This document shows, in pieces, positions 1,080-45,162 of a DNA stretch of 64,000 nt (its first letter is position 1; the number at the start of each line of letters is the position of its first letter). The stretch covers positions 434,001-498,000 of the forward strand of contig JANUWF010003379.1 in NCBI GenBank assembly GCA_026120185.1, in the 5' to 3' direction. The notes under the pieces are model-generated. The model saw nothing but the letters and a program-made list of their open reading frames with translations. It did no database searches and was not told the origin of the DNA. This DNA comes from Voacanga thouarsii. Taxonomy: Eukaryota; Streptophyta; Magnoliopsida; Gentianales; Apocynaceae. The position numbers and the translations under genes are program-made.

Positions 1080-2368
1080 TGATGACTAACACACAAAATC
1101 TTGAGAAGCAACTCACGCACCTCACAAAATTATGAGGGACTCACCAAACACTCCCAAGAGCAAGATCTCACTATGCACACTTCATCAATCGCTTTGAGAG
1201 ACTGGTAAAGCAAGTCAAGCTCTTCCAAAGAAATCTGAAGTACAAGAGGAAGTAGAAACTTCTAAGAAAACTCAAGATTTTTAGATATCTTCTAAAGGGT
1301 TGATTCCTATTGATTAGCTCAAAGACTTCATCATGGGCACAATTAAGGACAAGTATGAAGAAGGTAGCAAATCCACCTTCATATATGCAAAGCTTTATTT
1401 GCAAAGAATTGATGATATGTGGATGCCAGCTGGATATCAGTTACAAAAACTTTAACAATTTGATGGCAAATAAAATCCTAAGTAAGACGTGATTCACTTT
1501 ATCAAGGCATGTAATAATATTGGAACTTATTGAGATATACTAGTGAAATAGTTTGTGTGATCCCTCGAAGGAAATGCATTCAATTGGTATAACCTACTTG
1601 TACTAAGTTCCATCAACAATTGGGAACAACTTAAACAAAAGTTTCTCAATAGATTCCATAGCACTCATAGGATTGTCAACATGATAGAGCTCACTAACTT
1701 CCGCTAATGAAAAGATGAGCCAGCAGTGGACTATATCAACAGGTAGAAAATTCGAATCTCAATTATAGAGATGTCTAAGTGAATTGTCTGCAATTGAAAT
1801 GTTCATCTAAGGCATGCATTGGGGACTTCAGTATATTCTCAAATGGATCATGCTAAAGACCTTTGAAGAATTAGCTATGCCTGTTCATGATATAGAATTG
1901 ATCATTGCTGCATATGGGGGCAAAGCACCTGTTCAAGACTCCAATAAAGGTAAAGAAAAATAAAATTTTAGAAAAAGAAGCAAACCATTTTCTAAACTAA
2001 AGAAATGATTCTAAGGCAATAGTCACGGCTCCAATAAAAATTTCTTCAAAAGTAACTTAGAAGGTAACTAAGAAAGTGGATCCTTCACAAGTAAGGAAGA
2101 AGGTAACCTTAGAAAAAAGGCAGTCTAAGGAATGTCTTTCAGTTGATTCTGATGTTTCTTTAATATTTAATAAGTTAATGGCTATTAAGACCACAGAGTT
2201 GCTAGAAGCAAAACGTCCAAATAAAGTTAGACGAATAAATGATCCCAATTACTACAAGTATCATCATTTGATTATTCATCTAATTGAAAAGTATTTTATA
2301 TTCAAGGACAAGATTATATAGTTGGTCTGTGAAGGACACGTTGTTCTTCAAGAAGACAATGCATTAGC
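1080..2368 (+). pseudogene. Element A gag, degenerate
   Basis: A decayed gag polyprotein, the capsid/nucleocapsid precursor that packages element RNA. Two frames carry the signal. Around 1270-1460 the frame reads through a segment containing IKDKYEEGSKSTFIYAKLYL. Around 1555-1700 it carries the capsid-like segment SLEGNAFNWYNLLVLSSINN, followed by the WEQLKQKFLNRF motif typical of retrotransposon gag. A Lys-rich stretch at 1930-2010 and a later segment at 2060-2330 (with YYKYHHLIIHLIEKYF) correspond to the nucleocapsid/linker of Tat elements. Numerous stops and at least two frameshifts exclude function. The frame is cut at 2368 by the L complex and resumes at 11666 without loss. Confidence 0.75.
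2364..2368. repeat. Left target-site duplication of the L complex (TTAGC)
   Basis: TTAGC immediately precedes the LTR terminus TGTAACAC. Its partner TCAGC follows the other terminus at 11661-11665, with one mismatch. Removing the insert and one copy restores an open frame of element A across the site. Confidence 0.7.
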
Positions 2369-4777
2369 TGTAACACTCCACTACCTAGGCCCGCCAGGGC
2401 CGGGGATGTCGCCCCGTCCAAAGGACAATGAGTCTTTATAACTAGGTCACACAAATAAAATTGTAGAATAAAAATAATACTTTTACTTAAAATTTATTAC
2501 AACCTAAGAATAAATCGAAGATTAAATCCAAGAATTCCAAAAATAAATCCAAAATAAAAATTATCCACTCTCAACTCCTCAAAGCATTACACAAAATAAA
2601 TCATCAGAAAATCTTCCAAGGCAGGCAATATCTAGCCACTCATCCCCACAGTAGGATCGACCTGAAATCATGGTAAAAATGGTGATGAGAAAAAAATCTC
2701 AGTAAGTCCGTGTGTGCTTTAAGTGTCGAGTGAAAACAGTTCGTGAATGCAAAGTATAAAATCTTTATAAGGGAAATACTGGTAAGCAATAAACATTAGT
2801 TAAAATCAAGAGTGGTGTTTTAGTTTTTTCAACCATATATAATCAATAAAATCAACCACTCAAAAGAAATGATCATGGGTTACCACATGTTGGGCCCCAT
2901 AACCGGTCAGAATGCCGACACTTTGTGCAGACTGACAAAAAGGTAGGTGATCGGCCTAACGGGTAAGATACTTCTCCTTCTCTATACCCAAACAATAACT
3001 GGGTGTCCATTTCGGCAAAACACAGTCACTTGACTGAAAAATAAACTACTAGCTCGAACCGGCACGACCTACTGAACTGACATCTTATCCGAGAAGGACT
3101 CACCCCTAAGAGGTGGCCACCTATTGAGAGACTTACCCTAACCCTTCAAAGACTAGTCCTAGCAGTCCACCCTTATTGAGTACTCAATGTAACTTATCCC
3201 ACTTGGAAAAAATAAACAAAACACAGTTCCACTTGAAAATCGCAATTAAGGGTTTCCAAAGTCTTTGTCAAAATTAGTTTTAGAAAGAGTTTTAAGTTTG
3301 AGAAAATCTGCTTATTGATTTTCAAATAATTGTTTGACTGGAATAAGGAAGCAGTCAATCCTCAATTGCCTTTATAGAAATGAGTGTCCATGCACTCTGC
3401 ATTTGGCTTGCCATAATAAATATTTTACATCAATCAAGTTTTATGTAGGAGCTTATTTGATCCTTAGCTCGAGATAAAATAAAGGTCCTCAACAGCTGAC
3501 CTAACCCCGCCTGGAGTAAAAATAAACCACAATCAAACTCAAGTCAATATCCATTTTCACAAATAAAACTAGCTCAACTCAGTACTACCATGATCCTAGT
3601 GTCCCAAGCTTTATAGCCAAATAATAAATAAAAAGGTTTATAAGTTAAGTCTAATTTGATATTTAAATAATTAATGTTTTGGGAAATAGGTACTAATAAG
3701 TTGAAGGTTTAAATCTTGCTAAGAATAATTTAGAGTTTGTTTAATGAAGAGTCCTAGGTGGTATTAGGTAAAATAATGATTTGTTAATAATTAATTATTT
3801 AAAAATAATTGATAACTAAAATTAGTTGAAAATAAATTTTAATGGGTCTTGATTGAAAGCTAATAAATAAAATTTAATAGGTTTTGTTTAAAAGATAATA
3901 ATTGAAAGGTGATAAATTTTAATGATATTTATGAATATAAGACTTACAAAATTAATATTTTTACTTATTATAATTATTTTCATAAAAGGCTTTATTTGAT
4001 ATTATCATTTTATATAATATATATATTTATATATTTTATTTTCTAGTAAATCTATTATTTATTTGACTAAAATATCCTTATTATATATATATCATAATCC
4101 AAATCTACCCTTCCTAGGGTTTTTCGAAATTACTAGCAAAATTCATAATATTAAACATTTTATTGAAGAAATAAAATTTAGCTTAGGGACAACTAAGTCA
4201 TGATCATAATTCCACTTGCTAACTATAATCATGAACATATACTCCCCTTCAATTCATCAAATCACCCAAATCATGAATAAAAGCATAGATCTAAATTTAT
4301 CAAGGCATGATCCAACCTCTACTAACATAAACATAATCATGGCTTCAATAATTATACATGAATATAAATCCTATTCATCATAGATGACATAATCTCTAGT
4401 ATACTTGATCACAAATACTACCTATGACAAGGAGACATGCATTAAACCCTAAAAATACCATACAATCAACTAAGATAATCAACTCATGCATGAATCCCAT
4501 CTCCATCGTATACACACATTTATTCATACTTCAATCTCTACTTATCACAACAATACATGCTCAAATCCTATTCATAATCCATCTCCTACCAACATCATCC
4601 TAGAGACATGAATCTAGAATTTAAAAGGAGGGTTAAAAATACTTACTTGATTGATGAATACCTTGAAGGAGTTTCGAATGGATCTCAACTCCTAGATGTC
4701 TAAATCCGTCCAAGGAAGATGAAGAAAGCATGGCCATTGGTGAGGAACCATTCGGCCAAGAAGAAGAGAGTGTTTGG

Positions 4778-4780
<3 letters not shown>

Positions 4781-4810
<30 letters not shown>
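4781..4810. repeat. (GA)n microsatellite in LTR L1
   Basis: An uninterrupted AG dinucleotide run inside the LTR. It recurs at the homologous place in the other copies (7231-7276, and as CT at 9229-9265), so it is part of the LTR and has varied in length. Confidence 0.95.
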
Positions 4811-4818
<8 letters not shown>

Positions 4819-6432
4819 GAAGAGAGTCTATTAGCATGCTTATTCATATATATATTCATTAGAGATCAAAGATTAGTGAAGATGAAGTTGTTTGAACAAA
4901 CCTACCTTGAAGGTGTTTTTGAGCCTTCACAAAATTTCTGATTTTTTATCCAAAAGAGCAAATTGGATTTTGGAGTTTGATGTTAAAAATGGTATGGATG
5001 GACTCACGGCAGTGAGTAGATGAAATTTGGAATTTTTGGAAGAAGTTTGAAGTGGTTTGGAGAGGTATTAGGCGAAAGAAAGGAGTAGGTGTTCTATGTG
5101 TACTTGAAGGTTGAAGAGAATGGAGGAATTTTGGATTTGTGGCTGCCGAAATTCTGTGTGTGCAGTGGCCGAATTGTTTGTGTAGTTTAGGAAGATGATT
5201 TTTCTGGTTTGAAAGGAAAATGAAAGGCTGGTTGTTGAAATCCTAAAAGAATATTTTTGGGGATCAAATTTGGAAACAAAATATAGCAAGAATATCTTTG
5301 TTCAATAGAAGCTTTTTGGAGCTGCTATGGCCGAATTGTTGCTCTGTGATTTGGCTGGATGAAAGCTGGTTGAAGAAGGCTAATGGTGGCCGAAAAGAAG
5401 GAGTGTAATGGTGAAGGGAAGGTCTAGTTGTTTGAGGGACATTTTATGGAAGGTTGCTAAATTAAGTTTGCAGGAATTTTGGTATCCAATCAAGGCATGA
5501 TTACAGTGATTTGTTGGAGATATTTTCAGGCAGCCATGTCTGATTTTTGTGCATAAGCTTGGGGAAGACAATGGAGTTCAGTTCATGGCTGTTTAAGAGT
5601 GGTTTGAACAGAAAGATGAGGAAGATTTCGGAGTGGAAACAAGGCTGGAAAAATTCTGCATATGATTTTCGCACGTGCTAAAAATTTTCTGGGCAGTTTC
5701 GGCTGCCATTTTCCAGTCAACTTGTAGAGAGTTTGAAGGAGATTTCAGATGCCTTTCATGGCTGGTTTCCAACCTGCTTCATGGAAGAAAAATGTGGCTA
5801 AGGAGCTAGGAGAAAAATGGAAGAAAACAGCTTGGTTGAAGACCACCAAAGCTGCCATTTTAACCATAAATTTTTCTGGTTTTGCACAGCATTTGTGCTG
5901 CCCGAAATTAACTAGAAAATTTCAGATTTCAAGCTGATCAAAAGGGCCATTTTCTGGCAGTATTTGGGAGGGAATAATGGCTGAGAATTTCGACACCTTG
6001 AAGGCATAAGAAGCTGGAAAAATTTCAGTTCATTATATGAAGGAAAATGAACCTAGTTAGAGTGAAGTTTAAAAGGTTCACTAGGGGAATTAATTCTCTT
6101 GGAACCTTCCCCATCTCTTCCACATTTTCAGTCCATAAGATGTCTTTCCCTTAGACATTTTGAAACTTCAAAGCCACAACACTTTACTGAAATTTTTGGA
6201 ATGAAATTGGCTAGAACAAATTTAACTAATCTAATGAATTGAGAATTAGGAAAAATTAAAGATCAAGGAGGAATGAATTCCCTTAGGAATTTTTGAGTAG
6301 GCCACAAGAATAGGATTAGAATACTCCTATCATGTCTCTCCTAGGACAACACCTCTACCCTATGCTAAAGCACTTAAGGCCGAAAGTACCCCTTCCCAAG
6401 CAAAAATAAATTTAATCATGCTAAAGCTCCAA

Positions 6433-6492
6433 TGATGGAATTTGAACTCAAGACCTCAAGAATTAATTCCAAAGCTCTAACCACTAAACCAC
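6433..6492 (-). other. tRNA-like (SINE-head-like) segment inside LTR L1
   Basis: On the minus strand, a box-A-like stretch (TTTAGTGGTTAGAGC, complement of about 6474-6488) is followed, at tRNA-like spacing, by a box-B-like stretch (GAGTTCAAATTCC, complement of 6437-6449). These resemble the D-arm and T-arm internal promoter of a tRNA gene. The rest does not fold as an obvious tRNA, so a SINE head or tRNA relic captured by the LTR is more likely than a gene. It is kept at 8893-8952 and 25136-25196. Confidence 0.45.
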
Positions 6493-6573
6493 TAAACCAC
6501 AACAACTCTTATTCTTATTTTCTCTCTAACCACTAAACCACTAAACCATAACAACTCATATTCTTATTTTCTA
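6476..6573. repeat. 49-bp tandem repeat, two units
   Basis: Two adjacent units starting at 6476 and 6525, each beginning TCTAACCACTAAACCACTAA and differing at a few positions. The second LTR copy (from 8936) has only one unit, so the duplication arose in this copy. Confidence 0.85.
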
Positions 6574-6801
6574 TCTAAAATATTTTCCCTATTTAATCCT
6601 CAAGTTATCTCCCTATTTTCACCTCAGGCAAAAATTACCATTTTACCCTTCTTACTCAATAATCATACCTAAGCCCTCTAGACTAGAAAATACAAATCCA
6701 AAGCACATAAAATTATATAAAAATATATTTAAACATACAATAAAGTATGATATGCATCCCAACTCCCTTACTCTAAGGTTGGTTTCGACTGCGGTTTCAC
6801 A

Positions 6802-6952
6802 TCGCCACACTGAGAAGAACTATTGGTCCAAGGGTGGTGAGAGGAAATGTTATCACTGCGGCGACCCGAACTACCTGAGGAACACTTGCCCTAAGTTGCA
6901 TCGAGTTGGGCAAAGAAATCCAGTGCAGAATCCGGGGCCGAATAGAGCCAAC
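6802..6952 (+). pseudogene. gag nucleocapsid fragment
   Basis: A frame in 6802-6952 carries CYHCGDPNYLRNTCP, a retroviral-type zinc knuckle (C-x2-C-x4-H-x4-C) in which the His is replaced by Tyr, followed by a Pro/Arg/Asn-rich tail. Only about 50 codons of gag remain. It lies between two minus-strand LTR copies but is itself on the plus strand, so it was joined there by rearrangement. Which element supplied it is not clear. Confidence 0.65.
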
Positions 6953-7230
6953 ACCATCATATACACACATCCATTCATGCTTCGAATTCAACTAATCACA
7001 ACAACACATGCTTAAAACACAATCATAGCCCATCTCCTTCTAATATCACTCTAGAGACATGAATCTAGAGTCTAAAAAGAGGGTTGAGGGGACTTACTTG
7101 ATTGGTGAGTACCTTAAAGGAGTTTCAAATGGATCACAACTCCTAGATGTCTAGATTCGTCCAAGAGAGATGAAGAAAGTATGGCCATTGGTGAAGAGCC
7201 ATTTGGCCAAAAAGGAGAGAGGTTCGGAAA

Positions 7231-7276
<46 letters not shown>
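7231..7276. repeat. (GA)n microsatellite
   Basis: An AG dinucleotide run with one interruption, at the place equivalent to 4781-4810. Confidence 0.95.
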
Positions 7277-7278
<2 letters not shown>

Positions 7279-8892
7279 CATTAGTATGATTATTCATATA
7301 TATATTCATTAGAGATCAAAGATTAGAGAAGATGAAGTTGTTTGAACAAACCTACTTTGAAGGTGTTCTTGAGCCTTCACAAAATTTCTGATTTTTTATC
7401 CAAAAGAGAAAGTTGGATTTTGGAGTTTGATGTTAAAAATGGTATGGATGGACTCACGGCAGTGAGTAGATGAAATCTGAAATTTTTGGAAGAAGTTTGA
7501 AGTGGTTTGGAGAGGTAATAGACTAAAGAAAGGAGTGGGTGTTCTTGGTGTTCTATGTGTGCTTGAAGGTTAAAGAGAATAGAGGAATTTTGGTTAATGC
7601 TAGCCGAAATTCTGAGGGAGAGAGTGACCGAATTGCTAGAGTGTTTTAGGTAGACGATTTCCTAGTTTGAAAGGAAAAAGGAAAGGCTGGTTGTCGAAAT
7701 CCTAAAAGAATATTTTTGGGAATCAAATTTGGTAACAAAATATAGCAAGAATATCTTATTCAATGGAAGCTTTTTGGAAGCTGTTATGGCCGACTGCTTG
7801 CTAGGATTTTTGCTGGACGAAAGTTGGTTGAAGGAGGTTAATGATGGCTGAAAAGAGAGAGTGTAATGGTGAAGGAAATTTCTGGCTGTTTGAGGGACAT
7901 TTTATGGAAGGTTGCTAAATTAATATGGCTGGAATTTTGGTATCCAATCAAGGCAGGATTGCAGTGATTTGCTAGAGATATTTTCAGGCAGCCATGTCTG
8001 ATTTTCATGCAGAAGCTTAGGGAGGACAATGGAGTTCAGTTCAGGGCCGTTTAAGAGTGGTTTGTGTAGAAGGAGGATGGAGTTTCGGTCAGGGCTGAAT
8101 TAGGAAACAAAGTTGGACAGAAGTCCTGCACAAAATTTTCGCTATTATTGGAATTTTCCTGGGCAGTTTCGTCTGCCATTTTCCAGCCAGATTGTAGAGA
8201 GTTTGATGGGAATTCCAGGGGTCTTTCATGGCTGGTTTCCAGCATTCTTCATGGAGGAAAAACACCGCTAAGGAGCTGGGAGAAAACTGGAAGAAATCAG
8301 CTTGGTTTAGGGTCACCAAAGCTGTGATTTTGTCCAGAAATTTTCTGGCTTTGCACAGCATTTGTGCAGCCCGAAATGAACCAGAAAATTTCAGATTTTA
8401 AGCAAATCAAAAGAGCCATATTTGGGAGGGAATAATGGCTGAGAAATTTGACATCTTGAAGGCACAAGATGCTGGAAGAATTTCAGTTTATTACATGAAG
8501 GAAAATGGACCTAGCTAGAGTGAAATTTTAGAAGATTCACTAGGGGAATTAATTCTCTTGGAACCTTCCCCATCCCTTCCACATTTTCGGTCCACAAGAT
8601 GTCTTTCACTAAGACATTTTGAACCTTCAAAGCCACAGCACTTCACTGAATTTTTTGGAATGAAATTGGCTAGAACAAATTTGACCAACCTAATGAATTG
8701 AGGATTAGGAGAAATTAAAGATCAAGAAGAAATAAATTTCTTTAGGAATTTTTGTGTAGGGTAAAAGAATAAGATTAAAGTACTCCTATCATGTCTCTCC
8801 TAGGAAAACATCTCTACTCTACCCTAAAGCTCTTAAGGCCAAAAGTACCACTTCCCAAGTAAAAATAAAATTTAATCATACTAAAGCTCTAA

Positions 8893-8952
8893 TGATGGAA
8901 TTTGAACTCATGACCTCAAGAATTAATTCCAAAGCTCTAACCACTACACCAC
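8893..8952 (-). other. tRNA-like segment, second copy
   Basis: The same box-A-like and box-B-like arrangement as at 6433-6492, in the partial LTR copy, with a few substitutions. Confidence 0.4.
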
Positions 8953-9204
8953 AACAACTCTTGTTATTATTTTCTCTCTAAAATATTTTTCCTATTTAAT
9001 CCTCAAGCCCTCTCTATATTTTCTCCTCAGGCAAAACTTACCATTTTGCCCTTCTTTCTCAATAATCATAACCAAGCCCTCTAGACTATAAAACACAAAT
9101 CCAAAGCATATAAAATCATATAAAAATATATTTACACATGCAATAAAATATGATATGCATCCCAACCCCCTTACTCTAAGGTTGGTTTCGACTGGGGTTT
9201 CACA

Positions 9205-9222
9205 CTAATAGACTCTCTTCTT

Positions 9223-9267
<45 letters not shown>

Positions 9268-11660
9268 CCGAACACTCTCTTCTTCTTGGCCAAATGGTTC
9301 CTCACCAATGCCCATGCTTTCTTCATCTTCCTTGGACGGATTTAGACATCTAGGAGTTGAGATCCATTCGAAACTCTTTCAAGGTATTCATCAATCAAGT
9401 AAGCCTTTTTAACCCTCCTTTTAAATTCTAGATTCATGTATCTAGGATGATGTTGGTAGGAGATGGATTATGAATAGGATTTGAGCATGTATTGTTGTGA
9501 TGAGTAGAGATTGAAGCATGAATAAATGTGTGTATATGATGGAGATGGGATTCATACATGAGTTGATTATCTTGGTTGATTGTATGGTGTTTTTAGGGTT
9601 TAATGCATGTCTCCTTGTCATAAGTAGTACTTGTGATCAAGTATACAAGAGATTATGTCATCTATGATGAATAAGATTTATAATCATGTATGATTATAGA
9701 AGCCATGATTATGTTTATGTTAGTAGAGGTTGGATCGTGCCTTGATAAATTTAGATCTATGCTTTTATTCATGATTTGGGTGATTTGATGAATTGAAGGG
9801 GAGTATATGTTCATGATTATAGTTAGCAAGTGGAATTATGATCATGACCTAGTTGTCCTTAAGCTAAATTTTATTTCTTCAATAAAATGTTTAATATTAT
9901 GAATTTTGCTAGTAATTTCAAAAAACCCTAGGAAGGGTAGATTTGGATTATTATATATATTTAATAAGGATAAATAAGAGCTTTACTAAAAAATAATATA
10001 TATATAGATATTATATAAAATGATAATATCAAATAAAGCCCTTTTATGAAAATAATTATAATAAGTAAAAATATTAATTTTATAAGTCTTATATTCATAA
10101 ATTTCATTAAAATTTATCACCTTTCAATTATTATCTTTTAAACAAAACCTGTTAAAATTTATTTATTAGCTTTCAATCAAGACCCGTTAAAATTGATTTT
10201 CAACTAATTTTAGTTATCAATTATTTTCAAATAATTAATTATTAACAAATCATTATTTTACATAATACCACCTAGAACTCTTCATCAAACAAACTCTAAA
10301 TTATTCTTAGCAAGATTTAAACCTTCAACTTATTAGTACCTATTTCCCAAAACATTAATTATTTTAAATATCAAATTAGACTTAGCTTATAAACCTTTTT
10401 ATTTATTATTTGGCCATAAAGCTTGGGACACTAGGATCATGGTAGTAGTGAGTTGAACAGTTTTATTTGTGAAAGTGAATATTGACTTGAGTTTGATTGT
10501 GGTTTATTTTTACCCCAGGCGGGGTTAGGTCAGTTGTTGAGGACCTTTATTTTATCTCGAGCTAAGGATCAGGTAAGCTCCTGCATAAAACCCAATTGAT
10601 GTAAAATGTTTATTATGGCAAGCCAAATGCAGAGTGCATGGATACTTATTTCTGTAAAGGCAATTGGGGATTGACTCCTTCATTATTCCAGTCAAACAAT
10701 TATTTGAAAATCAATAAGCAAATTTACTCAAACTTAAAACTCTTTCTAAAACTGATTTTGACAAAGACTTTGGAAACCCTTAATTGCCATTTTCAAGTGG
10801 AACTGTGTTTTGTTCATTTTTCCCAAGTGGGATAAGTTACATTGAGTACTCAATAAGGGTGGACTGTTGGGACTAGTCTTTGAAGGGTTAGGGTAAGTCT
10901 CTCAGTAGGTGGCCACCTCTGAGGGGTGAGTCCTTCCCGGATAAGATGTTAGTTCAGTAGGTCATGCTGGTCCAAGCTAACAGTTTATTTTTCAGTCAAG
11001 TGACTGTGTTTTGCCGGAATGGACACCCGGTTGTTGTTTGGATATAGAGAAGGAGGAGTATCTTGCCCGGTAGGCCGATCACCTACCTTTTTGTCAGTCT
11101 GCACAAAGTGTCAGCATTCTGACCGGTTATGGGGCCCACGTCTAGTAACCCATGATCATTTCTTTTGAGTGGTTGATTTTATTGATTATATATGGTTGGA
11201 AAAGCCAAAGCACCACTCTTGATTTTAACTAATGTTTATTGATTGCCAGTATTTCCCTTATAAAGATTTTATACTTTGCATTCACGAACTATTTTCACTC
11301 GACACTCAAAGCACACACAGACTTACTGGGATTTTTGTCTCATCACCATTTTTACCATGATTTCAGGTCGATCCTGTTGTGGGGATAAGTAGCCAGATAT
11401 TGCTTGCCTTGAAAGATTTTCTGATAATTTATTTTGTGTAATGCTTTGGGGAGTTGAGAGTGGATAATTTTTATTTTGGATTTGTTTTTGGAATTCTTGG
11501 ATTTAACCTTGGATTTATTCTTGGGGTTGTAATGAATTTTAAGTTAAAGTATTATTTTTATTCTGCAATTTTATTTGTGTGACCTAGTTATAAAGACCCC
11601 TTATCCTTTGGACGGGGCGACATCCTCGGCCCTGGCGGGCCTAGGTAGTGGGGTGTTATA
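9205..11660 (+). mobile_element. Inverted LTR arm (3' part of L-family LTR)
   Basis: The reverse complement of about 2369-4834. It begins abruptly at an internal LTR position directly against the U3 terminus of the partial LTR (junction 9204/9205) and runs to a normal U5-type end (GGGGTGTTATA; the usual terminal CA is changed to TA). It contains a CT microsatellite at 9229-9265. The short frames at 10638-10835 and the 5' part of 11575-11952 are LTR sequence. Confidence 0.85.
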
Positions 11661-12759
11661 TCAGCTATTTGGACAACTGTTGCAATCCCTCCCATTGAAT
11701 TTGTTATTTTTTAGGTTAACTTCAGAAATTTTTGATTTTGTCAAGGTTGGAACTAATGGACAAGTTTTTCTTGCTGAAGGATATCATCAAGAAATTGAAG
11801 AACCTTCTACTCATGACACTATTTCCTCAACTATTCAACTAGAAGTTAAGGGCCAGACATTATTGACGAGAAGAAGAAATCGTATGAAAGCCTTAAGAGG
11901 TGAAGCTTCACTGGTAAGAAGTAGGTTCACCAAGAAGAATGTGGGAAGATAAAAAGTAAGAAGACTAAGCTTGCACCAATAGCAAATGTTTCCTCGTGGA
12001 ATAAATCCCCAACACCTATCATGTTAAAAAATTTTATACTAAGGAAACTTGTCGAAAAGTTCAACATTTTCTCGGACTATGCCATACATAATGAAGAAAG
12101 CAAAGAAGACAAAGATGAGTACATCAAAGAAGAAGATGGGGAGAAAGTTGATTCTTCAACAAATCTTAGTAGCTGTTTGGCTAAGATCACATTTGCTAAT
12201 GATAATTTGTTGCTTGGTTTAACATTTTATAGCAGACCATTATTTATGATTGGCTATGTACAAGAGCAAAAAGTGAATAGAATCCTACTAAATGGAGGAT
12301 CAACAATAAATATCCTATCTCTGCAAACATTAAGAGAGTTGAATATTTTTATAGATGAATTGTCTTAAAGCCACCTTATGATACAAGAATTCAATCAAAG
12401 GGATAACGAGCCAGTGGTACTCTTTGACTGGATATATTAATTGAAAATATGCCTTCATATGCTATCTTCCATGTTATTGATGCTAAGACCTCTTACAACA
12501 TTTTGCTAGGAAAACTATGGGTCCATGATAATGTGTGGTGCCATTAACTATGCATCAGTGTTTCAAATACTTTTGCAATGGCATAGTAAAGAAAATAGAT
12601 GTCGATGACAAACCTTTTACTAAAGCTGAAGCACATATTGTTGTGCTAAATACTACATTCGAAAAGATGATGAATCAATTAAGATTGATTCATCAATGAG
12701 CAAGGAAGATAAAAAGGTTACCTTCTCTAAAAATGTTAAAGTTATAGGATGTGTAGAAG
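11661..12759 (+). pseudogene. Element A gag/pro junction and aspartic protease, degenerate
   Basis: Continues the A frame after the L complex. An open segment up to 11952 encodes a charged linker, and 12021-12368 holds an acidic stretch (NEESKEDKDEYIKEEDG) followed by the retropepsin-like domain. The flap/active-site region reads NRILLNGGSTINILSLQTL. The position of the catalytic Asp of the D-[SG]-G motif is Asn (codon 12291, AAT), a change reachable by one G-to-A transition. Downstream, around 12370-12690, protease-tail sequence continues in shifting frames. The frame is then cut at 12759 by element M1 and resumes after 15842. The domain is inactive and belongs to the Tat-type pol. Confidence 0.75.
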
Positions 12760-20790: not shown

Positions 20791-21206
20791 AGGAGTAAGC
20801 AAGCTATGTATGGAAGGACGATTGGTCACTATGGATAAAGTAGATCCCAGCACATCAGTGATTGTAGAAGGTCATATTTAGATTTTTAGCAAAGAAGCTA
20901 GAATTTTCAGTTCTTCTTACTATTTTATTGCTTATCCCTCTGCTCAAAAGATGGGAACTAAAAGTAGAGAAGCTCCCTATGAGATGGAAATTAGCACTCC
21001 TTTAGGTAAACAAAAGGGACAATGATAAGATGTGTTCGAAGTGTGAGATATTGATAAGAGATATGATTTTGAAAGAAGATCGCATATGTTTACCCATAAA
21101 AAAACTATGATATTATTCTTGGGATGAGTTGGTTATATTGATATTATGTCCGAATTGACTGTAGACACAAATTTGTACAGTTTTGTAAACCATGGAAAGC
21201 TATGTT
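20791..21206 (+). pseudogene. Element C protease, degenerate and cut by L3
   Basis: Retropepsin-like remnants in several frames: a segment TSVIVEGHI near 20856, then EMEISTPLGK near 20980 and VDCRHKFVQF-like sequence near 21160, in the same order as in the intact protease region of B (41380-41720). The catalytic Asp region cannot be read. The solo LTR L3 interrupts it at 21206. Confidence 0.6.
21202..21206. repeat. Left target-site duplication of L3 (ATGTT)
   Basis: A perfect match to 25449-25453, on the other side of the solo LTR. Confidence 0.9.
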
Positions 21207-24200
21207 TGTAACACCCCGAAGCCTAGGCCCGCCAGGGCCGGGGATGTCGCCCCGTCCAAAGGACAAGGGGTCTTTATAACTAGGTCACACAAATAAAATT
21301 GCTGAAATAAAATAATACTTAACTTAAAAATTTATTACAACCCAATATACTCCAAGAGTAAATCCATGAAATTCCAAAAGAAAAATCATAAATAAAATTA
21401 TCCACTCTCGTCTCCCCAAAGCAATACATAAAATCAAAAGACACATTCTCTTCCAAAGCAGATATTACTAGCCACTCAACTCCACAGCAAGATCATCCTG
21501 AAATCATGATAAGAAGGTGATGAGACAGAAATCTCAGTAAGTTTGTGTGTGCGTTAGGTGTTTAGTGAAACCAGTTCATGGATGCAAAGTATGAAACCTT
21601 TACAAGAGAAACATTGGCAAGCAATAAACATTAGTCAAAAGTAAGAGTGTCGTTTTGGCTTTTCCAGCCCTGCTTAATTAATAAAATCAACCACTCGAAA
21701 GAAAGGGATATGGGCTACCACACGTTGAGCCCCATAACCGGTCAGAATGCCGACACTTTGTGCAGACTGACAAAAGTAGGTGATCGACCTACTGGGTAAG
21801 ATACTCCTCATTCTCTATACCCAAACAACAACCGGGTGTCCATTCTGGTAAAATACAGTCACTTGACTGAAAACAAACTGCTAGCTCGGACCGGCATGAC
21901 TCACTGGACTGACATCTTATCCGGGAAGGACTCACCCCTCAGAGGCGGCCACCCTAACCCTTCAAAGACTAGTCCTAGTAGTCCACCCTTATTGAGTACT
22001 CAACGACGTTTTCCACTTGGGATAAAATGAACAAAGCATTGCTCTTCATGAAAATAGTAATTTGAGGGTTTCCAAAGTTTTGGGAACAATCAGTTTTAGA
22101 AAGAGTTCTAAGTTTGGAAAATCTGCTCAGTAACTTTTAAATAATTTAAGTGTTGAAAATAAGAACAAATTCAACCCTCAATTGCCTTTAAATAAACGAG
22201 TGTCCATACACTCCGTATTTAGCTTGCCATAAGGAAAACATTTCACATCGATAGGATTTATGCAGGAGTTTACCTGGTTCTTGCTCACAACAACAAGGTC
22301 TCGAACAGCTGGCCTAACTCCACATAGGCAAATACAAATCTTAATCAGATTCAAGCTACAATCCACTTCCTCAATTTTAAATCAACTTAATTCATTACTA
22401 CCATGATCCTAGTGTCCCAAGCTTTTGGGCAAGACACTAATTAAATAGGTTTATAAGCTAAGTTTAATTTGTTATTTAAAATAATTAATGGTTTGGAAAA
22501 TAAATTCTAATAAGTTGAAAGTTTACATCTTGTTAAGAAAAATCTAGAGTTTATTTGATCAAGAATCATAGGTGGTACTAGGTAAAATAGCGATTTAATG
22601 ATAGTTTAGTTGTTAGAAAATAATTGATAGCTAAAACTAGTTGAGATTAAATTTAATAAACCTTTCTTGGAAAATAATAAGTAAATCCTTAAGGGTTTTG
22701 ATTTAGTAAATATTTTACTAATTATGAATCATTCTCATAAAGCTTTAATTGATCTCTTTATTTTAAATAATATTTATTTATTTTATTTCCTATCAAAAAT
22801 TATTATTTATTTGACTAAAATATCCTTTATATATATAATAATTCCAAATCTACCCTTCCTAGGGTTTTTCGAAAATACTAGCAATATTATTTTATTGAGT
22901 ATTTTATGCATAAAGTGAAAATTAGTTTTAGGGACAACTAGATCATGATCAAATTTCTATGGCCATCCTCAATCAAGAACATACACAATCCTTCAATTCA
23001 TTAAATCATCCAAATCTTGCATATAGGCATAGATCTAAATTTATTAAGACATGACTTAACCTTTACTAGCATAAACATGATCATGGCTTCAATATTCTAG
23101 TCATGCATATAACTCCTATTTATCAAAGGTGACATAATCTCTAGCATACTTCATCACACATACTACCTATGACATGCATCAAACTCAATTCCACATACAA
23201 CCAACCAATATAATCCTTCCATGCATAAATCCCATCTCCTTCACAATCATACATGTACTTATGCTTCAATCATCAACAACACATACTCAATCCTATCGCC
23301 ATTCATCTTTTAACAACATCAACCTAGAGACATGATTCTAGAGTTTAAAAGAAAGATTGAAGGTACTTACTTGGTTGATGAATGCTTTGAAGGAGTTCAG
23401 AGTAGATCCCAACTCCTAGATGGCTAACCTTGTCTAAGAGAAATGGCGAAAACAAGATCATGGAAGGAGAAGTCATCCGGCCAAAGAAGAGTGATTTCGG
23501 CCATGAGAGAGAGAGAGAGAAAAAGAAATCATTAGTATGTTTATTCGCATAGGTTCTCATTAGAGATCAAGGTTAGAGAAGATAAAGTTGATAGAGTGAA
23601 TTTACCTTGAAGATGTTCTTGTTCTTCACAGAAATTTCTGCTTTTAATCCGAAGTAGCAAGATGTTTTGAGGAGTTTGATGTTAATAATGGTGTTGATGG
23701 AATCACAGCAATGAGTAGACTAAATCTGGAGATTTTCATGAGGGTTTGAGATGGTTTGGAGGGGTATTAGGTGTAGAGAAGAAGTAGGTGTTCTTGGTGT
23801 AGTGTGTGTGTTCTTGATGGTTGCAGAAAATCGAGAGAGAGGTAAGGAATTTGCAGCTGCCGAATTTTCTGTGGGAGATAGGGCTGGCCGATTTTCAGTA
23901 GGGTTTAGGGAGTTGTTTCTCTGATTTGGAAGGGAAAATGAAAGGTTAGTTGTTACAATCCTTGAAGAATATTTTTAGGAAGTAAATTTGGAAACTAAAT
24001 ATTCTAAGAATATCTTGATTGTTTAGACAGCTTTGAAGTCTCCTATGGCTGACTGGTTGTGTAGCTTTTCTGAGGAATTAAAGCTGGTTCAATAAGGCTT
24101 ATGATGGCCGAAACTAAGGGGCACAATGATGAAGAAGAAGTCTGGTCAATTGAGCAAGATATCATGAATTTTGGAAAGTAATCAAGCTAAATTGCAGGGA

Positions 24201-25448
24201 TTTGTTGGAGTGATTTTCAAACAGCCATTGTTACTTTTCGTCCAGAAGCTTATGGGAAACAATGGAGCTCTGTTAATGGTGGTTTAAGGGAGGTTTTGAC
24301 AGATTAGGGCTGGTGTTTCGGCTGGAAGAAAAATAGGAAACAAAGCTGGAAATTTGGACTGCCCAGTTTTTTTTCGCTGCACAGTAATTTTCTGGGCAGA
24401 ATTTCGTCTGCCACTTCTAGCCAATTTATAGAGAATTTAAAGGGGAATTTTAGGGGTATTCAAGGCTGGTTTCCAGCCTTCTTCATGGAGGAAAAACATG
24501 GCTAAGGCGCTGCACAAAATCTGGAAGAAAACAGCTCAGTTTTGAGCCTCCAAGGTAGCGATTTGCCCAGAATTTTTCACTGGTTTTGCTCAGTCTTTGT
24601 GTAGCCCGAAAATGACAGAAATAATTCATGATTCAAACTGATCTTAAGGCCATTTTTCTGGTAGTATTTGGGAGGGAATGTTAGCTAAGAAGCTCGACAA
24701 TTTAAAGGTACAACAAGCTGGAAAATTTCAGCTCATGCCATGAAGAAAGATGAGCTAGTCTAAAGTGAAATTTCAGCAAGCTTACTAGAGGGATTTTTCC
24801 TCTCAGAATTCCCCTCAACTCTTCCATATTTTCCAGACTATAAGAAGTCTTTTACCAAGACATTTTGATCCTAAAAGACCTCAGCACTTTACTGAATCTT
24901 CTGGAAAGAAAAAGGCTAGAACATCTTGATCAAACTAAGGAGTTGAATGCTAAGGAAAACCAAAGATCAAGGGAACAAGAATTCCCTTTGGGAATTTCGA
25001 GTAGGCAAAGGAGCGGAATGAGAATACTCCTAACATGTCTCTCCTAGGACATCATCACCACATTGATCTAGGCCCTTAAGGTCGAAACCATTCCTTCCCA
25101 AGCAAAAATAAAATTTAATCAAGTTAAAGCTTCTATGATGGACTTTGAACTCAAGACCTCAAGAATAAATTCCAAAGTTCTAACCACTAAACCACAACAA
25201 CTCTTGTTGCTATTTCCACTAGAAAAATTATTTTCTATTCAATCCACAATCTATCTCCCTATTTTCGCCTCGGGCAAAAATTACCATTTTGCTCCTCTCA
25301 CACAATACTCACCAACAAGACTTCAAGACAATAAAAATCAAATCCAGAGCACATAGAAATCATATGAAAATATATTTAATTATGAAATAAAGTATGATAT
25401 GCATCCCAACCCCCTTACTCTAAGGTTGGTTTTGACCGGGGTTTCACA
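21207..25448 (-). mobile_element. L3: solo long LTR (4.24 kb)
   Basis: On the minus strand it runs from TGTGAAACCCCGGTC (complement at 25448) to GGGGTGTTACA (complement at 21207). Both ends are canonical TG/CA and the flanking duplication ATGTT is perfect, so it is a clean solo LTR. It matches L1 (2369-6801) across its length with many substitutions and indels. The length is unusual for a plant LTR. It has no coding capacity; frames such as 24865-25047 and 25135-25356 are chance. Confidence 0.92.
25136..25196 (-). other. tRNA-like segment, third copy (in L3)
   Basis: Box-B-like complement at 25140-25152 and box-A-like complement at about 25177-25194, spaced as in the two L complex copies. 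Confidence 0.4.
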
Positions 25449-34565: not shown

Positions 34566-35493
34566 TGAAAAACCTTACAGAGGAGTGAATAAGGTTTTTG
34601 GCAAATTAAAATTTTTAAGAAATCTGTTTTACAGAATATAAATGTTCTTCAAGTTTCTTGGACTAACTTCATAGCAATAGAGAAAGCTATCCAAGGAAAC
34701 TTTGAGAAATATCCAGATTCAGTCTAAGATAAGAAGCACAATGCAATTAATAATACTATATTCAGAGAAATAAGATATGGAATGTATAGTGATTCGATCT
34801 ACCATGATCTACATCCACTACCTTAAGCTCACACTTAAGGATTTTCAACCATATTTCATTTACTCAACTTAATGAAATCAATCTGTACCAAATATAAGAG
34901 AGGATCACCACACTTGGTTTTCTAAAACCTCTCAATTAACTAACAAATCAAAGCTCACCCGAGATTGGTTTTACACCACAATCTTGGTATATAAAAGAGA
35001 TTGAATATCAATGCAATAGTAAAGGCTCATTTCTTTGAGCAGATGTGCATTAAAAAAAAAGTACAAATACATTTACCTTTAAGACACTATTTGATTTTAC
35101 TTTAAAGCACTTTGATAAAGGAGATTTTCGTTTTCTATAGAGTAAGAGTGTTTTTTAGAAGGATTGGGCAACAATCTACAGTCAAATCAAGTTTAGAAAT
35201 CTTATATAGAGACATAAAGTTAAGTACCAATGACTATAAAACAGCTATTTTTTACTGTCAGATTTATGTAATTTTTGGACTCATGTTTTGGACGAAGATG
35301 CATCTAAAAAGTAAGTCCAAAATGGTACTTTTTCAGGTAGAAACGATTTGACACTGTTCACTGAATTTTGGACAATTCTTTTGGATGCAAAATCATTCAA
35401 ACTATTCGATCCAAAATTCTGAGATATAAAACTTTGAAATCTTTTTGTTTGTGTGCTTCAAGGTAGAAATAAATTGAATCATAAGATAAAAAA

Positions 35494-38400
35494 TATAACA
35501 CCCCACCTTTACTTTTGATTGGCTACTATTTGTAATAGGATCAGAATTTGTATTGATGTCCAGAATAAAAGCTGATCGGTGTATTGAGACGAATACTTTG
35601 GTGAAATAAAATTTTGTCGGGACTGGATGTAATTATTGGATTTGTTCTACCTGTATCCTTAATTTTTGAAAGGCTATTATTATTAATAAAATAAAAATTT
35701 TAGGGTACTCTAGAAAGAAAAATTGATCAGTGCAATGAAACACACGTTTTGGTGCAAATTATGTTACTTATGATATCGGGGGCATTTTCGTCATTTTGAT
35801 CGTACTCACGACTTTGACCGCAAATTTAACCAAGTAGAAAAGTAATTGAAGAATTTAAGTATTACCAATGGATTTAGTGGAAATTTTGGAGTTAAATGGC
35901 GAAATAAAATATTTTTTCATTACGAACCCGATTTTGGTCATTTCTGAAGAAAATAGGAAAATGCGGTTGAAAATGAGACGTGCGGCTTCTTGTGATTGGT
36001 GGCATAGGACAAGTGTCAAATAATAAGAGGATGCATAAAATATTCATGCATGCAATGCTTCTTAAATAAGTTTTGCAAAAAAATTAAGAAAAATGTGAAA
36101 AAAGGCGAGATCGCGACACGTGTAAAGTAACCACCATTCATTTAATTGAGAAAATTCTTATTAGTCATTATTTTGATCAATAATGGCGGTGAGGAGGCTA
36201 GGAAAACCAGCCAAGGGCTTAAATGAAGAAGGAAGGAATAAATAAGGAAGAAAAGGAAAGAAAAAATCAAGAAAAATTGGAAAAGGAGAGAGAAAATAGT
36301 GTTCTTGAAGAAGTTGAAGATTCTTGGAGCAAATTCAAGCTAGAACAACTTATACACAAGGTAAAGTCCTATACTTCAAGAATTAAAGTTGTGATGATTA
36401 AAATGATTATTGTGTATTATGTGAGACTTTGTGTGTGCAAATGTGTGTACCGGTTGGATAAAGGATTTATAGGCTATGTTTTGTATGGTGAATAAGAGTA
36501 TTTGAATGGTGATTTAAAGGGCTGTTCATGATTGAGAAAAGAGATGGTAGAGTTGGGATAAAAATGGGTTAAATGTTAAAGAAAACGGATTATGATTTGT
36601 TTTGAATGTTGATGTTAGTTATATGTTATTTTATAAGAATTTAGTGGCTTTCTTGAATCTAAAAATCTGAAGAATTAAAGTTGTTTGAAGGAAAATGAAA
36701 TGGATTAAGGATTAAATAGGTGTTATGAATTAAGAAGAACAAGTAGGTGAAGTTGTTTTGTAGAAATGGACTAAAAATCAGAAAACTATTGGGGCTGTTT
36801 TTGCCCAATATCATGTTACTGGAACTAAAACTTTGAAAACAGCCTATACAAAATTTAATTTAAGAGTCTTATGGTCGTTTTGGTATATCATAGAGCCAAA
36901 TCAGAGTTGTGGATTGAAAGTTATGTTCAAAACAAAATCATGTGTCAAAATAGCAAAATTTCATAGTTTTGCTTAGAACATGGACAAATTTAGGAATGAT
37001 TAATTATATGATTTTGGATAAAATAATTGGGAAAACATGAAGTGAATCCCTTGTTTATGAAGGGTGGAAGAATGTGGGAAAAGGAAAACAAAAGAACTGA
37101 TCAAACGATGAATAAATGACGTGAACAAAAATTGAATGTTTTCCTTGACTGTCGGCCTTGTCGGCTAACCGTTAGCCCCGTAGGCTAAACATCGGTTGGA
37201 CGTCGGCTACCCGTCAGCTGGATGTTGGCTATTTTTTCGGTCAAACAAGAATTGATCCAAAAACAATGTTTGGTGTAGGTTTAGCAACAAATGGCCAACG
37301 GAACGTCGAAAATGATAGAAACGAATGTTAAACGGCCGTGAACGGAAAGAGTTGTTTAGGACATGAGGTGAGTTTCTTTGATTTTTAAAACCTTTTGAAA
37401 GCTAGTGTGCTTCACTTTTCCATGAAATGCTAGGTTTTATACCATTTTGAAAATCCCTAAATATGTTTAAGGTTTATCTGAGCAAGAATTATTTTATGTC
37501 GTTTTAGGCTCAATTAAACATTATAATTAGCGTGGAAACTTTATTGGATGATTAAAGCATGAATTTTCTGAATTTAGTCCTTTTTTGATTAAATATTTGA
37601 GATTTTCAGAAAATAGTAAATTTTAGAATCGGGTATTCATAAATTGACTGGAATGCCCTTATTGGAACGTTTTATGGAAATATATTTTGAAAACTTTGAA
37701 TTTAATCCTCTTTTGGGATTAGAATTCTAAATTTCTTTAAATGAGTTCCTTTTAGAATCGGGTATTTGAAAAATGATCCATATGTCCTTATTGGAATGTT
37801 TTATGAAAACCTTTGGAATCGGGTATTCGGTAAATGATCGAAATATCCTTATTCGAACTCTTGTGAACATTTTTCAAATCGGGTAAAGGTAAAATGATCC
37901 GAATACCCTCGGAAAGTCTTTTGGAATCGAGCATGGGTAAAATGACCCAAATGCCCTTGGAAAATGGCTTTTGTGATCAAGTACAGGGAAAACGACCCGA
38001 ATACTCTTCAAAACATGTTTTGATGTGTGAACAGATCTCTTTATCTTGTTTTAACATAAATTTGGAAAATGATCTCTCATGATGAGATTGACTTTTGGAA
38101 AATGACCTTTTGATCACTAAAACTGTTTTATTGATTTGATGTACCATGGAATGAATTGATTAGCTCTACAGAGTCTATGTGAATGATGATCTGACTTGCG
38201 AGTCAGTAGGATTAAATTCTAGAAAATGTCGTTTTGCCCCAAAACTATTTTAATTTAAAAATTCAGCGGGATCAGATAACCTTTTGGCCTGATCAGTCAG
38301 ATGGGATTGGTATTTTTAATGTTGAGTACTCAGTAAGGACTTTGATATTTGTACTAGCCTATGTTAGAGTTAGACGACCTTAGTAACCTGGCCTAGTTCT

Positions 38401-39334
38401 AGGGATTGTCTTGCTCCGAACAGGGTGACAGGACATTGAGATGAGTTGTCCTAGCTAGCCGTTTTGCACCTGGCAATTGTTGTGTCTGCGGGCGTTTCTT
38501 ATTTTGAGTCATTTGCTGGATACCAGGCTGGGACACTCAGTGTGTCTGACTCCTTGCCGCCTCGATGGTGATTGACGTCAAGATTGGGACCCCTAGCTTA
38601 TGGTGGCAAGTAAAAGATTGTGTGTTACGGTATACTAAGTATGTTGCGGTATACCTGAGCAGAAGTACGCTGCGGTGTACTTATTCCGGCGATGCACGGT
38701 TGAGTACTAGAGGTTGCGGCCTCAGTACAATGGTATGTGGCATCGAAGGCAAGGACTGCGGGACTTGCATGTGGATATAGGCTGACTTTTTGTTGGAGAA
38801 GTGCCTGTGATTTGAAAACTGGGGTAATGATTTGAAATCTGAAATAAAGTTTTTCAAAAATGATTGAGTTTTGAATAAACTCTTCTTTAGAGAGTTTTAA
38901 AATTGTTTTCAATGAATAAATGATATGCTATTCCATAAAAGTTTTATGTACCCTATACTTTCATAAAGCACTAACAAATACAAGACTCACTAGGTGATTC
39001 GTCACTTACACGTGTCTTTTATCTTACTTTTTGTAGGATCCAGAGCCGAGCAGACCTACTGATAGATGGACGATACTACAGAGTCGGCAGTTTAGGTCTG
39101 GACAGCTTCCTCTTTGATTATGTACTGTATTCTGTTATAATTAGAGATTGCATGTATGAGATTTTATAATATATGTATGTGTGTGGCCATTAGGGTGAGA
39201 TATTGTTGAGTCTGGACCTTATATATGTATTTACTCTATTATTTTCGTTATAAAGATCCCTGGTCCCGGAATATGGACAGAGCGATACCCGGTGTTGATA
39301 TACTTCTGTTGTTGTCTTTAGTAGGGGTGTTACA
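35494..39334 (+). mobile_element. Element B 5' LTR
   Basis: A 3,841-bp LTR, from TATAACACCCC (terminal TG changed to TA) to GGGGTGTTACA. The 3' LTR start at 44760 repeats the first 350 bp with scattered substitutions. Open frames within it (36223-36495, 38565-38780) are not genes: they lie in purine-rich or GC-rich LTR parts with no domain. Confidence 0.9.
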
Positions 39335-39336
39335 AT

Positions 39337-39348
39337 TGGTATCAGAGC
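39337..39348 (+). promoter_or_regulatory. Primer-binding site of element B (initiator tRNA-Met)
   Basis: TGGTATCAGAGC, two bases after the LTR end, is the standard complement to the 3' end of plant initiator tRNA-Met, which primes minus-strand DNA synthesis. Confidence 0.95.
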
Positions 39349-39380
39349 CTAGTTTGATAGAATTCTTTTACTGTGTAGGT

Positions 39381-39997
39381 ATGGCAGATATGAGCGATAA
39401 GGGCAAACGCCTAGTGGACAAGTGGGGTGATGAAAGAAGAAAGAGATAGGTGAAAGCTCGGGCGTAAAGAAATTGAGAAAGATCAGGAAGATCTTTCGAG
39501 CGGGTGAGCCGAGATATTTTCTTATGACAAGACCTAGACTTGGCTGCCGTCATGCTCCCCGTCTTTCCAGGAGTAGGTTTGATCTAGCGATACCCGTTAT
39601 TACTCTATTTGTGAGAGATCTTAGTGTGGAGGGGACATCTACCCTTAAGGGCGCACTATCACCGTATGAGAAGGAGGATGGCGATTTTGATGGGATTGAT
39701 GGTAGTGTTGAGCCACGCCCTTAGGATGATGATGAGGAAGAGGACAGTATCCCCGATGGTTTAGTATTATCTGAGGATGATGAGGTGGTGTTTGGTGGGG
39801 ATATACCCGGGATACTTGAGGAGGAGTTACCGGATTTAGAGAATGTTGATGCGGGACAGGATTAGGAGATACTCGAGGTAGAGGTACCTATAGCAGAGGA
39901 ACCTGAGGAGGATTTAGAGATAGACCCAGAGCTATTGGTTTGGTTGCAGCCAGATACGGGCATAGATGAGGAGGTTGATGCAGCGAGTCTTACATAG
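39381..39997 (+). pseudogene. Acidic pre-gag ORF of element B
   Basis: Between the PBS and gag a coding-like region starts MADMSDKGKRLVDKWGDERR (39381), shifts frame near 39450, then stays in one frame to a stop at 39995 with two internal TAG codons. The first part is Arg-rich (about 39475-39590). The second is strikingly acidic (for example DDDEEEDSIPDGLVLSEDDE, and EEPEEDLEIDPELL). I recognise no domain. It is not part of the gag frame, which starts at 40381. It could be an extra ORF carried by this family or a 5' extension of gag in an ancestor. No function is assigned. Confidence 0.55.
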
Positions 39998-40380
39998 TCT
40001 CGACTGACTCAAGACCTCCCGTATCGGACAATGATGATGACGTGTAGGAGGATGAGACATAGATATATAGTATGATATGTGTTGTTTAACTGGTGTATAT
40101 GGCTGTGTGCGTGGCACACATATCTTGTATTGACTTTGTAATAAATGAGAATGAATATATGTTATATTTTGTTATGTGCACTGAGCTTATGTTTATGATT
40201 ACTTTTGAGCCATTTTACATTGTTAAAATCTTATGAACTATACAGATACCTGCTAAACGAACCTTTGGACGATCATCGTGGGTTACTTGAAATAACCCTA
40301 AACTAATGGTGGAGGAATCACAGGCAGAAGGCCCCCACCTTACAACTTTGGACCACCCCATGTTTTAGACTTTTTAAAAG
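39998..40380 (+). other. Spacer between acidic ORF and gag in element B
   Basis: About 380 bp, without an open frame of length; AT-rich with repeated TATATG/GTTATG. It resembles an untranslated leader. Nothing else was seen. Confidence 0.5.
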
Positions 40381-41214
40381 ATGGCTGAAACGATTCGACA
40401 ACTGACTGAGACTGCTACTAGAGTAAACGAGAATGCTAGGGCGAATGAAGGTATGAGTAAGGAAAGTTAGCAAAATAAAGTCGAATCGGATCGAGCTCTT
40501 GAGCGCTTTTTCAAATTTTACCCTCCACAATTCCAAGGGCGACCTGATTCAGAATAGGAGGCAGAAAATTAGATTGAACAGATAGAAAAGATTTTTGCAG
40601 CCTTAAACTATTCGGAGTAAAGGAAGGTACAGCTTGCGACATTTCAGTTGAAAGGACCTACCTAAGATTGGTGGGCAAGGGAAATGAATCAACGAGAATG
40701 GGAGTGGACCGATTTTAAGGACAGTTTTAAGAAAGAATTTATTCCCATTTGGGTGGTAGAAAGAAATGAGGATGAATTTCAAGCTTTTTGGCAAGGAGGT
40801 CGTACGGTGGGGCAATACGCTGCTGAATTCACTAGACTATCAAAATATTGCCCACTTTTAGTCCATTCGGAAGCAGATAGAGTTAGACGTTTTGTGAAGG
40901 GCTTACGACCAGAGCTGAAGAGAGTATTAGCCGGTATGGCTCCCACTAGCTATAACGCCGCAATAGAGATGGCCTCTAGAATGGAAATGGCTGATATTGA
41001 GCAGGCAGGTGAGAGGAATCGACATGGATTTTGGGGTATGAATCAGAAGAGGTCTGGAGGGTCTCGGTGGCAGAAGAAAGGGAAGATGCAAAGGAGGGGA
41101 GGCCCGACTGGCTTGGCTGGAGGACCATCCTCCTTCAAATGCTTCAACTGTGGAGAGTTAGGCCATGAAAGTTTTCAATGCCCTCACCCACGAAGGATAA
41201 GAGGATGGAATTGA
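40381..41214 (+). pseudogene. Element B gag (capsid and nucleocapsid)
   Basis: One reading frame from ATG at 40381 to 41214, interrupted by five premature stops but no frameshift. The capsid region includes FFKFYPPQFQGRPDSE and then DWWAREMNQREWEWTDFKD, FTRLSKYCPLL and FVKGLRPELKRVL. The nucleocapsid has a complete zinc knuckle CFNCGELGHESFQCP (about 41137-41181). The terminal stop TGA at 41212 lies in the same frame as the protease that follows, so gag and pol were probably one polyprotein. All five internal stops are explicable as single C-to-T or G-to-A changes. Confidence 0.9.
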
Positions 41215-44596: not shown

Positions 44597-44719
44597 GAAC
44601 TACAGAATAAGAAAATATCACTTGTAAAAGTGTTGTGGATATATCATCCTGTACAAGATGCAACTTGGGAAACGGAGGAAAAGATATTGAAGAAGTACCC
44701 AGAACTATTTGAAGTGTAG
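44597..44719 (+). pseudogene. Element B chromodomain
   Basis: A separate frame begins ELQNKKISLVKVLWIYHPVQ and continues DATWETEEKILKKYPELFEV to a TAG at 44717-44719. This is the C-terminal integrase-linked chromodomain that targets chromovirus integration to modified chromatin. The aromatic/acid pattern VLW...H...ATWE is conserved. A frameshift just upstream separates it from integrase. Confidence 0.85.
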
Positions 44720-44746
44720 GCCAAATTTCGAGAACAAAATTTTTGT

Positions 44747-44759
44747 AAGGAAGGGAGAA
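44747..44759 (+). promoter_or_regulatory. Polypurine tract of element B
   Basis: AAGGAAGGGAGAA directly before the 3' LTR start is the RNase-H-resistant primer for plus-strand synthesis. A perfect position for the end of the internal region. Confidence 0.9.
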
Positions 44760-45109: not shown

Positions 45110-45162
45110 AGAAGCTCATGCTACATCATGGATATATATATCGCGACTTTGACCACAAATTT
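45110..45162. other. Filler DNA at a deletion junction
   Basis: 45110-45141 is a 32-base perfect copy of 46365-46396 in element C's 3' LTR. 45142-45162 is a 21-base perfect second copy of 45079-45099 of B's own LTR. Element D sequence then resumes. Two short templated patches between blunt deletion ends are the usual trace of end joining or synthesis-dependent repair with template switching. Confidence 0.85.

Follow-up and report, generated by a model that had tools for sequence, protein, structure and literature searches.

Complex insertions of long terminal repeat (LTR) retrotransposons, in which a single target duplication accompanies outer LTRs of high similarity, have been described in grasses by Sabot and Schulman (2007; PMC1950507), where the accessible part of the account explains them by template switching before integration. 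In this study, we describe a block at positions 2369-11660 of a 64,000-nucleotide stretch of the Voacanga thouarsii (Apocynaceae) genome (GCA_026120185.1, contig JANUWF010003379.1, positions 434001-498000; this whole stretch is hereafter the window), in which both outer ends are the U5 (unique 5′) end of one Ty3/gypsy LTR family in mutually inverted orientation. On the best reading, the block represents the pre-integration kind of complex element that is already known, whereas its head-to-head layout is new.

As far as the accessible description of the grass complexes (PMC1950507) goes, the block resembles them in that family members would have been fused before integration, in its single flanking 5-bp target duplication, and in the high similarity of its outer LTRs. 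The grass complexes, however, contain an internal LTR and two complete cores and are read as co-linear, whereas the block has inverted outer LTRs and only 154 bp of internal sequence. It is also unlike them in being arranged head to head, with U5 on both sides and an inner join that appears to include two bases of raw complementary DNA (cDNA). A word search of the PMC1950507 text for inverted, inversion, opposite, and head-to-head gave no occurrence, and the block is not a member of the complex class as described in the part of that source at hand.

Two further systems offer partial parallels. In autointegration inversions and two-LTR circles (PMC4751563, PMC2644782, and PMC12786077, each as far as accessible), the ends of unintegrated cDNA likewise react with cDNA, yielding inverted products and LTR ends linked by end joining; those products are circles, nonproductive according to PMC2644782, whereas the block is a linear product that would have entered a chromosome via two U5 ends. 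Reactions of the type that a fusion requires are known from unintegrated cDNA, but almost no such junctions were observed in the yeast study, as far as accessible (PMC4751563). Aberrant LTR-element molecules are also reported for EVD in Arabidopsis mutants, including two truncated insertions with clear target duplications, but in the accessible part of that report the truncated insertions all keep two LTRs, unlike the block, and a word search of its text found neither head-to-head nor inverted (PMC10462705). A literature search covering titles and the beginnings of abstracts, with few subscription papers, returned no head-to-head insertion by two U5 ends, which is weak evidence of novelty.

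Architecture of the block and identity of its outer ends

The block begins with L1, a complete LTR of 4433 bp on the minus strand (2369-6801), with its U5 end at 2369 and its U3 (unique 3′) end at 6801. L1 is followed by the dinucleotide TC (6802-6803), assigned to the minus strand, by a plus-strand gag fragment of the same family (6804-6957), and by L2, the U3-side half of an LTR on the minus strand (6958-9204). The last part is L3, the U5-side half of a plus-strand LTR (9205-11660), whose U5 end lies at 11660. The interior is composite, since the gag piece shares the sense of the right arm and L2 represents a different LTR lineage. The four joins named in the original prediction (2369, 6801, 9204, and 11660) fall on LTR termini, with the terminus at 9204/9205 abutting the interior of an LTR, and its inverted arms of 2.46 kb (2365-4834 and 9205-11667) align at 93.7% identity.

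Related copies were sought throughout the assembly (1.35 Gb in 1848 contigs) and comprised the best 40 of 8546 candidates for the U5 end of the LTR, the best 40 of 517 for the host repeat H that flanks the block, and the best 40 of 1718 for the gag piece, all three sets being biased towards the query. The reverse complement of the outer end, taken from L1 and from a related solo LTR in the window (S, 21207-25448), which served as the outgroup, aligns with three LTR ends, two of which precede primer-binding sites (39337 and 19854), the third lying at 46639. When the outer end is read as U5, the alignment scores were reached by 0 to 2 of 500 shuffles, whereas those of the controls (U3 starts, the reversed reading, and the other LTR end) were reached by at least 25 of 500. 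The motif TGGTATYAGAG also occurs two bases past the same end in 4/27 other family LTR ends. Based on these alignments and family ends, both outer ends of the block are U5, as had been proposed, with L1 and L2 in minus sense and L3 in plus sense; the opposite assignment, in which the outer ends are U3, is rejected by the primer-binding-site evidence. The outer ends carry no extra bases, as expected after trimming by integrase. In three of four family stretches (L059, L060, and L062, but not L061), the sense strand carries a match to the gag piece at 89-91%, and the piece hence has the sense of L3 rather than that of L1 or L2.

A single insertion into a host repeat

The block is flanked on both sides by H on the plus strand. 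The left flank (1869-2368), gag-like by eye and with 40 genomic matches listed including itself, ends in TTAGC (2364-2368), and the right flank (11661-12660), protease-like by eye, begins with TCAGC (11661-11665); these pentamers match at 4/5 bases, with a chance expectation of ~2.3%. Thirty of the 40 listed matches were fetched, itself included, and the overlap of the two flanks in each was projected from the ends of local alignments. In all 29 other copies of H the flanks are adjacent; they overlap by 5 bp in 27 copies and by 4 bp in two (L035 and L040). When the terminal 60 bases of both flanks were joined, the resulting sequence aligned across the empty site in 22/29 copies, which were those retained for the empty-site alignment, and 17 of these alignments were gap-free. 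Exact TTAGC or TCAGC was found at the empty site in 0/22 aligned copies, as expected at 80-84% identity. Because the flanks are adjacent or overlapping in 29/29 copies, the block constitutes a single insertion into H with a 5-bp target duplication and without loss of host bases, in agreement with the shared duplication of the original prediction.

The same prediction held that removal of the block restores an open frame of the host element. The frame is indeed present, but it spans only about 31 codons between two stops and is weak evidence by itself; the argument for one insertion hence rests on the DNA continuity of H. Pfam gave no match for the right-flank pieces of H, and a search for a host protein spanning the site returned one relative, P0001, which ends before the site, with further protein searches returning none. 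Searches for a relative of H elsewhere inside the window, and of viral, genome, and plasmid collections, were likewise unproductive. The host frame at 2061-2321 stops after KDKII, and P0001 ends at the same residue, which may reflect a shared stop, a contig end, or chance.

Inner joins of the block

At 6801, an LTR ending in TTTCACA is followed by TC and then by gag sequence (GCCACACTGAG). In the 23 copies in which the corresponding gag position was read (L059, L060, L062, and 20 of the 39 other matches to gag), AG stands in place of TC throughout, and native TCGCC was found in 0/23; the 39 other listed matches, in turn, start aligning only at base 3 (37 matches) or base 5 (two matches) of the query. 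TC is thus not part of gag, given both the AG in every copy read and the alignments that begin past it. It is the complement of the GA that stands between the polypurine tract and U3. Among 20 stretches, U3 could be located in 12, and in each of these the polypurine tract ends in GA immediately before U3, as it does in L060 and L061 (14/14 in total). U3 starts that lie outside a polypurine tract (L062, one in L061, S, and L2) do not read GA, whereas L016, beside a partial tract, does. On the U5 side, two bases likewise separate the LTR from the primer-binding site. Since TC complements GA and is foreign to gag, the join between L1 and gag has the appearance of a fusion between gag and a raw linear cDNA end, that is, an LTR plus two bases, and TC may be regarded as the scar of an unprocessed U3 cDNA end.

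The other inner joins appear to record later events. At 9204/9205, the native LTR sequence CTAATAG continues directly past the terminus of L2, and L2 looks like a later, ordinary nested insertion by integrase into L3. CTAAT (9205-9209) would be the sole remaining copy of its target duplication; the other side of L2 has been deleted, and hence a 5-bp duplication could not be seen. At the gag/L2 join, a 4-bp microhomology (CCAT) exists between gag and the LTR of L1 and L3, leaving the end of the gag fragment ambiguous over 6954-6957, a configuration as would be expected for deletion by illegitimate recombination.

LTR lineages and age of the block

L1 and L3 differ by a Kimura two-parameter (K2P) distance of 0.054, with transversions at 1.2% of sites, whereas L2 differs from L1 by 0.14 to 0.20, with transversions at about 5%, and is the odd one at 52/64 variable sites in the overlap. 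L2 belongs to a more diverged lineage and is therefore not the partner LTR of L1. A candidate arrangement in which L1 and L2 form the LTR pair of one minus-strand element (2369-9204) was rejected on the same difference in transversions; the gag piece would also be antisense to such an element, and no polypurine tract precedes the U3 of L1.

Among the 26 other fetched copies, L1 and L3 are mutually closest, at 94.6% identity versus 93.7% and 93.6% at best for any other copy. Derived sites were compared over 26 copies besides L3, with the weaker match in L004 left out and only sites with at least 80% agreement among the others considered. L1 and L3 have 16 derived sites in common; in 325 control pairs the median was 3, six pairs reached 16, and the maximum was 22. 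Private sites are nearly equal in number (46 in L1 and 47 in L3). In a tree of 26 sequences, from which L003, L010, and L016 were left out (longest match <1300 bases), L1 and L3 are sisters with an ultrafast bootstrap of 98 and branches of 0.0301 and 0.0304. This sister relation fits the entry of two copies together. At the commonly used plant substitution rate of 1.3e-8, the age of the block would be about 2 million years.

Proposed origin and alternative explanations

We consider it likely that the block arose from a head-to-head fusion of two cDNAs, which was inserted once via two U5 ends and subsequently modified by a solo-LTR step, the nesting of L2, and a CCAT-mediated deletion. In such a history, R would be a complete cDNA, and P a cDNA of the same Ty3/gypsy family that stopped within gag, probably because reverse transcription was incomplete or the molecule broke. 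Before integration, R would have been joined through its unprocessed U3 end (...TTTCACATC) to the gag end of P, either by end joining or by an end-to-end jump of reverse transcriptase, producing a molecule with U5 on both sides. Integrase may then have processed the two U5 ends and integrated them jointly into H, generating the duplication TTAGC/TCAGC. Recombination between LTRs would later have shrunk R to the solo LTR L1, and L2, a diverged family member, would have inserted into the LTR of P, of which L3 is the remaining 3′ LTR half. A CCAT-microhomology deletion would finally have removed the pol region of P, the U3 half of its LTR, and the U5 half of L2, leaving the gag fragment as the internal remnant of P.

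The original prediction had read the block as the integration of one head-to-head molecule rather than an insertion followed by inversion. The target duplication without host loss, the paired U5 ends, the sister arms of equal branch length, and the TC join favor this view, but it needs amendment in that two cDNAs would have been fused, L2 was probably nested later, and the middle was probably deleted. Inversion via LTR recombination was rejected by reasoning, as the outer termini would stay unchanged.

Several observations weigh against the two-cDNA fusion. The internal region of R is absent, so that an unobserved solo-LTR step is required, and the structure is known from one assembled locus alone. 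The target duplication agrees at only 4/5 bases, and a chance filler of two bases would read TC once in 16, so the case depends on the combination of TC, target duplication, U5/U5 ends, and sister arms. The closeness of L1 and L3 is modest (94.6% versus 93.7% for the next copy, with some control pairs sharing up to 22 derived sites), and over 500 bases of U5 L3 is 93% identical to L1, like several other copies, though it tops the list. Gene conversion between the inverted arms would equally make L1 and L3 close. The account also takes the two-base trimming of Ty3-type ends as given, and in the accessible parts of the sources two-base end trimming is given for HIV-1 only.

The main rival is a history composed of ordinary events, in which P inserted into H in plus sense, R nested in minus sense in the gag of P and became a solo LTR, and a deletion then removed the 5′ LTR, primer-binding site, and gag start of P, running exactly from the host/LTR boundary to the U5 end of R, the resemblance between the termini (TGTGAAACC / TGTAACACC) having served as its guide. 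Illegitimate recombination is a familiar cause of deletions, and the block itself has one with microhomology (6954-6957). The termini resemble each other and may share the short microhomology CTGT. Plant genomes commonly harbor nested insertions and solo LTRs (PMC2774510 and PMC1950507, as far as accessible), and the target duplication, the gag sense, and L3 are all accounted for. However, insertion by integrase into gag should leave native gag after the LTR terminus, where TC is found instead of the AG of 23/23 copies; moreover, the deletion must be base-exact on both sides, and L1 need not be the closest relative of L3 among the fetched copies. We therefore regard this series of events as unlikely, while giving it more weight than the remaining alternatives.

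A fusion made by integrase itself, in which the processed U3 end of R attacked the gag of P (intermolecular autointegration) and the product was integrated by two U5 ends, would yield the same geometry and the same outer features as the two-cDNA fusion with an unprocessed end. Retroviruses and Ty1 have been described to undergo autointegration, inversion products included (PMC2644782 and PMC4751563, in their accessible parts). A processed end would, however, leave no TC, and the accessible part of PMC4751563 gives no sign of autointegration junctions in yeast circles except for one mosaic read, making such an origin improbable. An assembly artefact or a chimeric clone joining inverted copies seems less probable still: repeats are sometimes misjoined and the structure is known from the assembly alone, but the arms differ at about 5% of sites, the flanks conform to an empty site plus target duplication, and the block contains a nested insertion. 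Least credible of all is a merger, through LTR-LTR recombination with loss of the intervening DNA, of two independent, opposite insertions in H. The process is described (PMC1950507, accessible part) and the outer LTRs come from one many-copy family, but it predicts host loss and unrelated pentamers; unless the two insertions happened to strike the same 5 bases, it is already contradicted by the 29/29 fetched copies of H that show no loss and an overlap of 5 bp (27 copies) or 4 bp (two copies).

Other features of the family and the window

The Ty3/gypsy family of L1 and L3 has LTRs with TG...CA ends, a tRNA primer-binding site, and a polypurine tract. Between the binding site and U3, other family copies match RT_RNaseH and SH3_Tf2-1 (L060) or SH3_Tf2-1 (L061), and RVT_1 matches in L059 only, where the stretch may belong to another element; the block retains none of the reverse transcriptase/RNase H/integrase region. 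The knuckle of its gag piece is CCHC-like by eye only, and the piece is without a Pfam match and shows weak similarity to gag from another element of the window.

Within the LTRs, a stretch at 6402-6492 and 8862-8952 resembles the reverse complement of a tRNA by eye, with what we take to be A- and B-box-like motifs; Rfam gave no match to it at the gathering threshold. About 57 extra bases of tandem-like ACCACTAAACC occur in L1 only (about 6490-6550) and are absent from L2 and S. The minus-sense solo LTR S, of the L1 family, is 74% identical to L1 and has ATGTT on both sides, and its left flank (20912-21205) matches the protease region (41416-41707) of another Ty3/gypsy element, located at 35063-46639. 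In the latter, domains of gag and protease lie at 40666-42009, pieces of the LTR recur at 35.1-35.8 and 44.8-45.6 kb, and an exact TGGTATCAGAGC stands two bases after GGGTGTTACA at 39325-39348. Elsewhere in the genome, tandem U5 pieces lie close together in L004 (975-3499) and two LTR stretches lie about 54 bp apart in L061, each a possible further complex insertion.

Implications

Taken more broadly, and somewhat less firmly than the origin of the block itself, it is probable that a Ty3/gypsy integrase, acting in the germ line under natural conditions, used two U5 ends to insert a pair of cDNAs that had been fused head to head when an unprocessed U3 end became linked to a cDNA truncated in gag. 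If true, the block would be evidence at the genome level that a failed reverse transcript can still integrate once rescued by fusion with the raw end of another cDNA, and that two U5 ends are an acceptable substrate in vivo for the integrase of an element of this type. The combination of an LTR terminus, two bases, and truncated internal sequence would constitute a readable scar for other genomes. Fusions of the head-to-head kind create inverted LTR repeats of kilobase length, of which they may be a recurrent source, and hairpin transcripts of such repeats could feed the silencing of the family.

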